NCBI RefSeq assembly: GCF_024972735.1
Contig: NZ_CP087723.1
Location: forward strand, 620,001 to 684,000
Direction: 5' to 3'
DNA: 64,000 nucleotides
Source: Halalkaliarchaeum sp. AArc-CO
GTDB lineage: Archaea > Halobacteriota > Halobacteria > Halobacteriales > Haloferacaceae
The position numbers and the translations under genes were made by a program. Positions 11,941 through 18,696 of the stretch are shown one piece after another. Position 1 is the stretch's first letter; the number at the start of each line of letters is the position of its first letter. The notes under the pieces were generated by a model, which did not search any database, was not told where the DNA came from, and worked only from the letters and a program-made list of their open reading frames with translations.

Positions 11941-13089
11941 TCACTCGACGTAGTCGATGTCTTCGGTTCCCTGGATGGATTCGGCCGGGGGCTGACCGTC
12001 GGTTCCGCCGTAGATCTGCGGTGACTGGACGCCGGTGACGACGATCATCGTCCGCATCTGTCCGTCGAGTTCCTCGTCGATCGACGTGCCCCAGATGATG
12101 CGTGCGTCGGGGTCGATCCGGTCGTAGATCTCCTCGACGACGCCCTCCGCCTCCTCGATGCTCATGTCGGAGCCGCCGGTGACGTTCACCAGCGCGGAGT
12201 TCGCACCGGAGATGTCGACGTCCAGAAGCGGCGAGCGAAGCGCGGACTTCACCGAGTCCTGTGCCTTCGACTCCGAGTCCGACTCCCCGAGGCCGATCAT
12301 CGCCACGCCACCCTTCTCCATCACTGTGCGGACGTCCGCGAAGTCGAGGTTGACGAGGCCGGGCATCGTGATCAGTTCGGTGATCCCTTTGACGGACCGC
12401 ATCAGCACCTCGTCGGACACTTTGAACGCCTGACGGACCGGGAGTTTGCCGACCGCATCGAGCAGCCGGTCGTTCGGCACGACGATCACCGTGTCGGAGA
12501 CGTCACGGAGTCGTTCGAGCCCCGCCTCGGCGTTCGTCCGGCGGACCTCCCCTTCGGCGGTGAAGGGCGTGGTGACGATCGAGATGGTGAGCGCGCCGGT
12601 CTCCCGGGCGGCCTTGGCGACGACGGGGGCAGACCCCGTTCCGGTGCCGCCGCCGAGTCCGGCGGTGACGAACACCATGTCCGACCCTTCGATTGCGTCG
12701 TAGATCTCTTCTTGGGATTCCAGGGCCGCCTCCTCGCCGACCTGCGGGAGCGATCCCGCCCCGCGACCCTGCGTCTTCTGTTGTCCCATCAGGATCTTGG
12801 TGTCGGAATCGACGTTCACCAGGTGCTGGACGTCGGTGTTGGCGGCGACCAGCTTCGCCCCGTGGATCCCCTCCTCGGACATCCGGTTTACGGTGTTGCC
12901 GCCGGCGCCGCCACAGCCTACGACGGTGATGTTTGTCTGGAGGTCCTGCAAGACGTCGCGGAGCTCGTCGTCGGACATCGTCCCGGTCGGCGTGGCGTCG
13001 CGGTTCGCCTCGCCGCCGAACTCCCCTTCGGGCGGATCCTCCCCCGGTTCCTCGGCCTCGTCAATCGCATCCTCGACGATGGAGTCCAT
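11941..13089 (-). CDS. ftsZ1: Cell-division protein FtsZ1
   Basis: This is a 382-residue FtsZ. The tubulin GTP-binding signature [12 protein letters not shown] is at residues 144-155, [13 protein letters not shown] (G1) at about 58-70, and the catalytic T7-loop segment [11 protein letters not shown] is present. The acidic first 40 residues and the [14 protein letters not shown] start match haloarchaeal FtsZ1, which in Haloferax assembles the Z-ring scaffold. An in-frame ATG 45 bp upstream was not used because the FtsZ1 family starts at MDSIV. It lies just upstream of secE-spt5 on the same strand. Confidence 0.96.
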
Positions 13090-13180
13090 ACTCTTGCCCA
13101 CGGGTTGTGTACCGAGCCTATTTACCTTTCCCATTCGTCAGACGCCCGTCTGACACCGGATATCGGCTGAATACGGGGGA

Positions 13181-14718: not shown

Positions 14719-15849
14719 TCAAGCGGAGACCAGCCGTTCCGCGATCCGATGAGCACCCTCCGCGGCCGCGAGATCCGGGCGGTCGGCGGTCACGACTGAA
14801 ACCTCGCGGTCGAGTTCCGCCGACAGACGGCGCTTCCACTCCTCGGCGATCCCCGGAATACAGGCCATGCCGCCGGTGAGCGCGATCGGTTTCCCGAGTG
14901 CGATCTGGTACGGTTTCATGTAGCCGGAGGCGAGCTCCGGGAGGAACTCGTTTGCGACGACGTCGACCGCCTCGTCGACGTACCGGTCCAGCGGCTCCAT
15001 TACCCCCCGCTCGACGGTGAACTCGTGGCTCCCGCCCCCGGGCTGCTGGACGACATCGGTGAACGGTTCGAACGACTCGAAGTCGGCGTGTTCCTCCTTG
15101 TATTCGCGGGCCGTCGTCCGGTCGACGTTGACTCGTCCCTGGGTCTCCTCCTCGATCGCGTTCGCGATCCAGCGGTCGGCCTCGTTGCCGGTGACCGCGC
15201 CGGTCGTGAACGGAGCGAGCTGTTCGCCGCGCCGGTAGGCACACGCCTCGAGGTTCGTCGACCCCATGTTGATCGCGACGAACACCTCCTCGATCGCCTC
15301 GAGGCCGTCGCCGTATGCGGGAATTGCTCCGCAAAGCGATTCGGGATACGAGCGGACGAGGTCGCCACCGATCGGGGCGTCCTCGATGACGTCCCGCAGA
15401 TTGGAAAGCCCCTCCTCGTTGTCGATCGTCGGTACCGCATACACGACGGCGCTGTCCTCGGGCACTCCTTCGGCGCCGACCAGTTCATCGAAGTACCGCC
15501 TCGCCGTAGCCACGCGGTCGCCGTCTTCGGGGAGTCCAGAGCGGAGCATGAACTCCACCCGATCGGGGTATTCCTGGGCGGCGCGTTCGCCGTACAACAC
15601 GCGTTCCTCCCCGGTCAGCGGATCGTCGTAGGTCGCCAGACACGTCAGCGTCCGGGAGCGGTGCAGGTCGCCGGTCCCGTTTCGGAACTCCACGACCGTC
15701 CGGGTGCTCCCGAGCTTCACGCCGACCGGCGTCGGACGATTCGTCTCCGCGAACTCTCCGCCGTTTCGTTGTTCTCCAGTCGCTTCTGACTCCTCTGCCG
15801 GTTCGTCGCTCGATTCTCCGTCCGTTTCGTCGGATGCGTCGTCACTCAT
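14719..15849 (-). CDS. Actin-superfamily ATPase, probable salactin orthologue
   Basis: The 376-residue protein has the actin/Hsp70 ATPase motifs: phosphate-1 GVKLGSTRTVV at about residues 42-52, phosphate-2 VAINMGSTNLEACAY near the middle, and an adenosine-binding IALTGGMACIPG near the C-terminus. The first 40 residues are an acidic Ser/Glu-rich extension. It is distinct from crenactin and MreB in its motif surroundings and resembles the haloarchaeal actin named salactin, which forms dynamically unstable filaments in Halobacterium. It overlaps the preceding FlaD/E-domain gene by 8 bp, so the two are translated together. The orthologue call is by recollection and not checked. Confidence 0.75.
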   Translation of the reverse strand: MSDDASDETDGESSDEPAEESEATGEQRNGGEFAETNRPTPVGVKLGSTRTVVEFRNGTGDLHRSRTLTCLATYDDPLTGEERVLYGERAAQEYPDRVEFMLRSGLPEDGDRVATARRYFDELVGAEGVPEDSAVVYAVPTIDNEEGLSNLRDVIEDAPIGGDLVRSYPESLCGAIPAYGDGLEAIEEVFVAINMGSTNLEACAYRRGEQLAPFTTGAVTGNEADRWIANAIEEETQGRVNVDRTTAREYKEEHADFESFEPFTDVVQQPGGGSHEFTVERGVMEPLDRYVDEAVDVVANEFLPELASGYMKPYQIALGKPIALTGGMACIPGIAEEWKRRLSAELDREVSVVTADRPDLAAAEGAHRIAERLVSA

Positions 15850-16447
15850 GATCGTAGTCGTCCTTGGGTCCGTCTGTCGGCCTCGTGGCGTGGTCCTCCT
15901 TCGAGTCGGCCAATGACTCCGCCGTTGCCGCCCCACGCCCCGGGGCTGTCCCTCGATCCTCCGTTCGGGTGGCTTCGACCGCGGCGATCCGCCGCAGACA
16001 ACACAGCGAGATCCGATGGTCCGCCGGCTCGTACGGTCGCCGATGTCGCGGCGACCGGAGTCCCGGGAGGCGTCTCTCCAGCGCCGACCGGGCCTCGGGG
16101 GCGATCCAGCCGATCCGTTCGTAGTATGAAAGCGCCTCGCTGGCGCCCTCCTGGCCCCCGATTTCGACCAGATACGAGAGCCAGTCGCCGACCAGACGCT
16201 CGGCAGAGACGCCTGTCGGTACAGTCTGCAGATACGGCCGCCCGGACGCTGTCGACCGCCCACGGGAGCCGAGCACCAGTTCGACGAACTGGGCGGTGTA
16301 GGCCCGCGCCTCGCTTTGATTTCGCGCCGGCGACGTCGACGATTCTCTGTCCGGAGCCTGTTCGACTCCGGCCGCTGGTGCTTCGTCCGGATGCGTTCCC
16401 GCGAGGGTACGCAGCTCCCGTACGTCGTAGTTCCGGGGGTCGTTCAT
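15842..16447 (-). CDS. FlaD/FlaE (ArlD/E)-domain protein in actin operon
   Basis: The protein has 201 residues. The middle (about residues 65-130) matches the C-terminal domain of archaellum proteins FlaD/FlaE: RPYLQTVPTGVSAERLVGDW followed by LSYLVEIGGQEGASEALSYY and ERIGWIAPEA. The N-terminal 60 and C-terminal 65 residues are charged and low complexity. No archaellin or other archaellum gene is nearby. It is transcribed upstream of and overlaps the actin-like gene, which suggests that it is an accessory or localisation partner of that filament. The domain call is good and the function inferred. Confidence 0.7.
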   Translation of the reverse strand: MNDPRNYDVRELRTLAGTHPDEAPAAGVEQAPDRESSTSPARNQSEARAYTAQFVELVLGSRGRSTASGRPYLQTVPTGVSAERLVGDWLSYLVEIGGQEGASEALSYYERIGWIAPEARSALERRLPGLRSPRHRRPYEPADHRISLCCLRRIAAVEATRTEDRGTAPGRGAATAESLADSKEDHATRPTDGPKDDYDHE

Positions 16448-18166: not shown

Positions 18167-18696
18167 TTTTTTGACGGGGGCCTCGCTCACTGTGTTCGCT
18201 CACGGGTGGCTTCGCTCCCCGTTCGCGTCTTCGAGGCGCTCTCTTCGCTCGCGCCTCGCTCTGCGCGCTCACGGGTGGCTTCGCTCCCCGTTCGCGTCTT
18301 CGAGGCGCTCTCTTCGCTCGCGCCTCGCTCTGCGCGCTCACGGGTGGCTTCGCTCCCCGTTCGCGTCTTCGAGGCGCTCTCTTCGCTCGCGCCTCGCTCT
18401 GCGCGCTCACGGGTGGCTTCGCTCCCCGTTCGCGTCTTCGAGGCGCTCTCTTCGCTCGCGCCTCGCTCTGCGCGCTCACGGGTGGCTTCGCTCCCCGTTC
18501 GCGTCTTCGAGGCGCTCTCTTCGCTCGCGCCTCGCTCTGCGCGCTCACGGGTGGCTTCGCTCCCCGTTCGCGTCTTCGAGGCGCTCTCTTCGCTCGCGCC
18601 TCGCTCTGCGCGCTCACGGGTGGCTTCGCTCCCCGTTCGCGTCTTCGAGGCGCTCTCTTCGCTCGCGCCTCGCTCTGCTCGACCCCCGTCAAAAAA
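18167..18696. repeat. 69-bp tandem array (7 units) bounded by a 14-bp inverted repeat
   Basis: Seven near-perfect 69-bp units begin at 18201, 18270, 18339, 18408, 18477, 18546 and 18615; the last ends at about 18678. The unit is GC-rich and 23 codons long, so frames on both strands stay open, yet no start, ribosome site or conserved protein fits. The array is bracketed by TTTTTTGACGGGGG at 18167-18180 and its exact inverse complement CCCCCGTCAAAAAA at 18683-18696. There are no spacers, so it is not a CRISPR. Copy number is likely to vary between strains. Confidence 0.93.

Follow-up and report, generated by a model that had tools for sequence, protein, structure and literature searches.

In Halalkaliarchaeum sp. 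AArc-CO, a gene for a protein with the FlaD/E domain, the domain of the archaellum switch protein ArlD, runs into the start of a gene for the actin-like filament protein salactin, and this arrangement raises the question of what an archaellum-type protein has to do with a cytoskeletal filament. Salactin of Halobacterium salinarum (VNG0153C) forms dynamically unstable filaments that grow from the cell poles and affects DNA partitioning in low phosphate; Halobacterium is the only genus in which salactin has been studied, and the experimental study reports no useful gene neighbourhood (PMC10746226). In Haloferax volcanii, FlaD/ArlD-GFP is found at the poles (PMC6509185; PMC11588486) and ΔflaD cells are non-motile (PMC6509185). 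The polar setting that an initial sequence-only reading of this DNA had suggested for the pair thus agrees with published work on both families. The open-licence papers searched give no account of what retains salactin filaments at the pole, nor do they mention a link between salactin and FlaD/E proteins, earlier mention elsewhere being possible. In the present work, the pair was analysed in a window of 64 kb (G000:C2:620001-684000, the whole stretch of DNA studied) and in salactin loci of other archaeal genomes.

Features of the gene pair

The two genes and their recognizable parts, in window coordinates, are as follows.

15842-16447 (-): FlaD/E-domain gene, 201 aa, assigned by PF04659; its closest kin are FlaD/E proteins linked to salactin in Halorubrum and Halobellus
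16409-16441 (-): N-terminal motif DPRNYDVRELR, conserved in ArlD-type FlaD/E proteins (from motif counts)
15983-16240 (-): FlaD/E domain, residues 70-155 (PF04659 and the AlphaFold2 helical region)
15842-15849 (-): 8-bp overlap ATGAGTGA, where the FlaD/E gene stops and salactin starts (from the sequence)
14719-15849 (-): salactin gene, 376 aa, actin-like filament protein (PF25229, NF053533)
14728-15735 (-): salactin domain, residues 39-374 (PF25229)

Both open reading frames are seen in the sequence, and the 201-residue protein precedes the actin gene on the same strand with an 8-bp overlap, as the sequence-only reading had it. The 376 aa protein, which that reading had called a probable salactin, is salactin: it matches the full domain of the Pfam Salactin model PF25229 (E 2.6e-177, 589.3 bits, above the curated cut-off) and of the NCBIfam equivalog NF053533 (575.7 bits, cut-off 400), models which place it in the same family as H. 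salinarum salactin. Its residues 1-38 form an acidic tail outside the domain. Volactin of H. volcanii (HVO_2015; PMC10869688) is likewise a haloarchaeal actin homologue that forms dynamic filaments, but the window salactin falls below the Volactin cut-off (19.6 vs. 35 bits).

The sole Pfam match of the 201 aa protein is to Arch_fla_DE PF04659 (E 1.2e-17, 64.1 bits vs. a cut-off of 21), and no FlaC domain was found in it by Pfam, which sets it apart from ArlCE. It is predicted by AlphaFold2 to be helical (mean pLDDT 78.6), with a confident helical region at about residues 71-166; a structure search of this model in the PDB gave no match (E up to 0.001), and PDB sequence searches gave none for either protein. 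A fused FlaD/E-salactin model, a modelling device with paired rows that reads through the intergenic stops and does not represent a natural protein, reached a pTM of 0.59 with no inter-domain error reported, and it yields no usable interface. Other features of the window include an FtsZ-like gene (by eye; 11941-13134, minus strand), which lies on the same strand about 1.6 kb downstream of salactin with two short genes in between, and a 69-bp unit present in seven perfect tandem copies at 18197-18678, shortly downstream of the 16679-18160 gene.

Conservation of the pair among haloarchaea

Two overlapping sets of loci were compared, viz. 71 loci from a salactin scan of a collection of one genome per species (set 1) and 60 salactin loci spread over genera (set 2). 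In 58 of the 71 loci of set 1, salactin is immediately preceded by a FlaD/E gene on its own strand (in 4 further loci this gene lies about 5 kb upstream, and one locus has another arrangement); the adjacent pair is present in 41 of the 60 loci of set 2. Since genomes contain about two FlaD/E genes each, this placement is far above chance, and the conserved operon-like pairing that had been suggested from the window alone is borne out in other haloarchaea. The median gap in 101 adjacent pairs is 78 bp and 19 of them overlap; overlaps of 4 to 19 bp are seen in the Halorubrum-type loci. The flanks of the 101 pairs comprise 31 upstream and 35 downstream families, and the loci form 15 groups that have no flanking gene family in common on either side; the pair therefore outlives its surroundings. 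The downstream neighbours of salactin are generally not conserved. The arlD-type FlaD/E gene and salactin are thus a conserved operon-like unit across haloarchaea, and we infer that they are co-transcribed in Halalkaliarchaeum sp. AArc-CO.

A similar association is seen for whole genomes. A salactin match is present in 188 of the 391 genomes of the class and a FlaD/E gene in 187 of these 188, the lone exception (G288) having a weak salactin match (1.3e-5). Nine salactin genomes have a single FlaD/E gene (G183, G187, G277, G290, G337, G351, G360, G379, and G388), which adjoins salactin in all of them but G379, where salactin is fragmented. The near relative G359, which has no salactin, has one FlaD/E gene rather than two.

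Association with the archaellum and retention of the pair in its absence

The statement of the sequence-only reading that no archaellum gene is present holds within the 64-kb window but not for the genome, which has an arl/che cluster 2.3 Mb from the pair (C2:2.918-2.938 Mb) with flagellins, ArlF/G, ArlH (assigned by NF052589), ArlI, ArlJ, ArlCE, CheD, and CheW. The other FlaD/E gene of the genome (C2:2928841) is ArlCE (PF05377 FlaC with PF04659 FlaD/E). Because the cluster contains no separate small arlD, the window FlaD/E gene is the only arlD candidate, and it is probably the arlD of this organism; it lies outside the arl cluster, where ArlD is usually, though not by strict definition, encoded. 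The view that the FlaD/E gene is unrelated to the archaellum has accordingly to be given up, the more so as the pair ends an arl/che cluster in Haloferax. The gene order in Haloferax and Halobellus is cheW-cheY-cheC-cheD-FlaD/E-salactin, beside flagellins and arlCE-F-G-H, with gene names given by eye from sequence and supported by Pfam on the window genome's own cluster and by the H. volcanii gene order, where CheD, CheC, and CheY are HVO_1205, 1206, and 1207 (PMC2841640). H. volcanii arlD and HVO_1202 have been named as one transcriptional unit (PMC13286277), and from the gene order in Haloferax loci HVO_1202 should be the salactin homologue. In g56 genomes (L107, L165), two salactins are found inside the arl operon, beside FlaD/E genes that fall with ArlCE in the tree described below; the salactin genes at these loci are duplicated, and each is accompanied by an additional FlaD/E gene and by a repeat of arlH.

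Such arrangements could mean that salactin is primarily a motility actin, positioning or stabilizing both the archaellum and the chemotaxis arrays at the pole, and that it is encoded with arlD since both serve the archaellum: the pair ends che/arl clusters in Haloferax and Halobellus, salactin is located within the g56 arl operon, and ParA-CheW genes stand beside the pair in Haloarculaceae. We consider this explanation unlikely, as the pair persists in genomes without an archaellum and without CheD/CheW. No flagellin match was found in seven genomes (G183, G277, G337, G360, G351, G388, and G334), and an eighth (G290) has one flagellin, with two stop codons; none of the eight has ArlJ, the residual matches of the ArlJ search showing the 20-28% identity expected for pilus homologues. 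The adjacent FlaD/E-salactin pair is kept in all eight (read from match coordinates in G337). CheD and CheW are both absent from G334, G337, G360, G351, and the 81%-complete G388, and four salactin genomes that are 95% complete or better lack the archaellum as well as CheD/CheW and still have the pair. Conversely, an archaellum without salactin is found in f6, Halobacterium G012, and f4, and deletion of salactin in H. salinarum causes no motility defect (PMC10746226). This retention strongly indicates that the function of the pair is independent of motility, and because the pair is retained in archaellum-less and chemotaxis-less genomes a salactin-related role of the FlaD/E protein is likely. 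The same genomes led us to reject, as a complete explanation, the possibility of a displaced arlD that serves the archaellum alone.

Relationship of the salactin-linked FlaD/E proteins to ArlD

The window protein shares with the ArlD (FlaD) proteins of H. volcanii and H. salinarum (PMC6509185; PMC2666748) the FlaD/E domain, an N-terminal motif of the type NPRxYDxxELR, and the status of one small FlaD/E protein besides ArlCE; it is unlike them in its extended C-terminal tail and in that its gene accompanies salactin, at a distance of 2.3 Mb from the arl cluster. The motif [ND]PxxYDxxELR is present in 87 of the 101 salactin-linked FlaD/E proteins, as well as in Halobacterium ArlD and the f6 proteins, and in no gene other than FlaD/E genes among 2874 called genes. 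In the best tree of 113 FlaD/E domains, whose columns exclude this motif, most salactin-linked proteins group with Halobacterium ArlD and the f6 proteins apart from ArlCE (split support 78/93). A tree that instead joins Halobacterium ArlD to ArlCE scores worse by 6.8 log units and is not rejected (AU p 0.38), so that orthology of the salactin-linked proteins to Halobacterium ArlD appears favoured by the sequences but not significantly. Long-branch copies, including those of the archaellum-less g69 genomes and of G388, come out on the ArlCE side, and their placement is unreliable.

Further FlaD/E genes were observed in some groups. A third, faster-evolving copy lies a few kb downstream of salactin in Haloferax (L013, L014, L069, and L114-L122), and a second small type without the N-terminal motif is located directly behind arlJ in L095, L097, L098, L099, and L100, in what constitutes another kind of arl cluster.

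It is rather improbable, in our estimate, that the copy adjoining salactin is a paralogue, i.e., a dedicated salactin partner that has lost its archaellum service. In G110 and G252, the arl cluster does contain a small FlaD/E gene of its own in addition to the one linked to salactin, and in the archaellum-less g69 the linked gene is still present, on long branches; however, the salactin-linked gene is the only FlaD/E besides ArlCE in most genomes, the window's included, and it is the motility-essential arlD of H. volcanii that shares a transcriptional unit with HVO_1202 (PMC13286277; PMC6509185).

Loci in which the two genes are apart

Poor synteny of salactin has been reported even within Halobacterium (PMC10746226), and this is consistent with our results because the published comparison was made around Halobacterium, where both genes are unlinked. 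The Halobacterium salactin loci (L064, L143-L148) have no FlaD/E neighbour, and Halobacterium ArlD (156 aa) is encoded beside arlCE. The genes are also apart in some other haloarchaeal genera (L150, L151, L156, L157, L161, L163, and L164), and the linkage has been lost in some Haloarculaceae. FlaD/E genes of this type occur without salactin, in the presence of an archaellum, in the f6 genomes, G311, and G333. In contrast to the window salactin, which overlaps a FlaD/E gene, several Halobacterium salactins are found behind a pyridine-nucleotide oxidoreductase, in a region with mutS/mutL and a sugar kinase, and a lone FlaD/E gene occupies the same mutS/mutL region in f6 genomes that lack salactin (L080, L082, L091, and L092; the genes of this region were named by eye from their N-terminal sequences). 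It looks as though one ancestral FlaD/E-salactin locus existed, of which Halobacterium and f6 each lost a different member. No FlaD/E gene was found near salactin in the loci of the relatives examined beyond haloarchaea, and a linkage ancestral to all salactins is thus without support.

That the pair is adjacent by inheritance alone, with no common function, would fit the loss of linkage in Halobacterium, in part of the Haloarculaceae, and in every relative examined beyond haloarchaea, but is very improbable given that the pair is kept across the 15 groups of loci, that overlaps are frequent, and that it survives loss of the archaellum and of chemotaxis.

Recurrent neighbours of salactin

A divergent ParA-like ATPase is located upstream of the pair in 25 loci, mostly of Haloarculaceae, and is followed in L030 by a CheW-domain gene (PF01584, 3e-22). 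Bacterial systems of a ParA-like ATPase and a CheW-domain protein, e.g., ParC/ParP of Vibrio, place chemotaxis arrays at the poles. The Haloarculaceae arrangement (L030:7315-9200, minus strand, and similar loci, where both genes are divergent to the pair) resembles these array-positioning systems in that, in many loci, a ParA-like ATPase and then a CheW-domain gene stand beside the pair, a likeness in gene order; in the window, unlike in these loci, ParA/CheW genes do not adjoin it. Beyond haloarchaea (L178, L179, L182, L183, L184, L186, and L187), salactin is followed by a coiled-coil-like protein of 168-207 aa and then by a MinD/ParA-like ATPase (in L182, TIGR01969 at 5.5e-29, below the cut-off). 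These three genes lie on the same strand and may represent an older form of the salactin module.

Discussion

We lean, with somewhat better than even confidence, toward the explanation that an ArlD-type adaptor and salactin together form a polar cytoskeletal module, held in common with the archaellum where one exists; that the two-gene unit is ancestral or nearly so in haloarchaea belongs to this explanation and shares its probability. The adaptor would consist of a short N-terminal motif joined by a flexible linker to a helical FlaD/E domain. It would assemble at the cell pole and there anchor or nucleate salactin filaments, which would extend from it toward mid-cell. In archaellum-bearing species, the same protein would also be the ArlD subunit of the archaellum switch or scaffold, thus setting the filament origin and the archaellum on one polar platform. 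On this explanation, the FlaD/E protein would physically bind, anchor, or nucleate salactin. Several results count against it: the genes are unlinked in Halobacterium and apart in some other genera, the salactin deletion of H. salinarum shows no motility defect, FlaD/E genes of this type occur without salactin in archaellum-bearing genomes, salactins beyond haloarchaea lack a FlaD/E neighbour, the fused model does not support an interface, and orthology to Halobacterium ArlD falls short of significance.

A broader proposal, possible but in our judgement doubtful, is that FlaD/E proteins of the ArlD type anchor or nucleate salactin at the pole independently of the archaellum. Salactin would then provide the filament in a positioning module whose other parts are ParA/MinD-type ATPases and adaptors, viz. 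FlaD/E proteins in haloarchaea and a coiled-coil protein beyond them.

The conserved pairing supplies a named candidate for what holds salactin at the pole, from a family that is already a polar marker in H. volcanii, and it suggests a second, motility-independent role for the archaellum switch protein ArlD. The pairing would also connect actin with ParA/MinD-type positioning and with chemotaxis at the archaeal cell pole.
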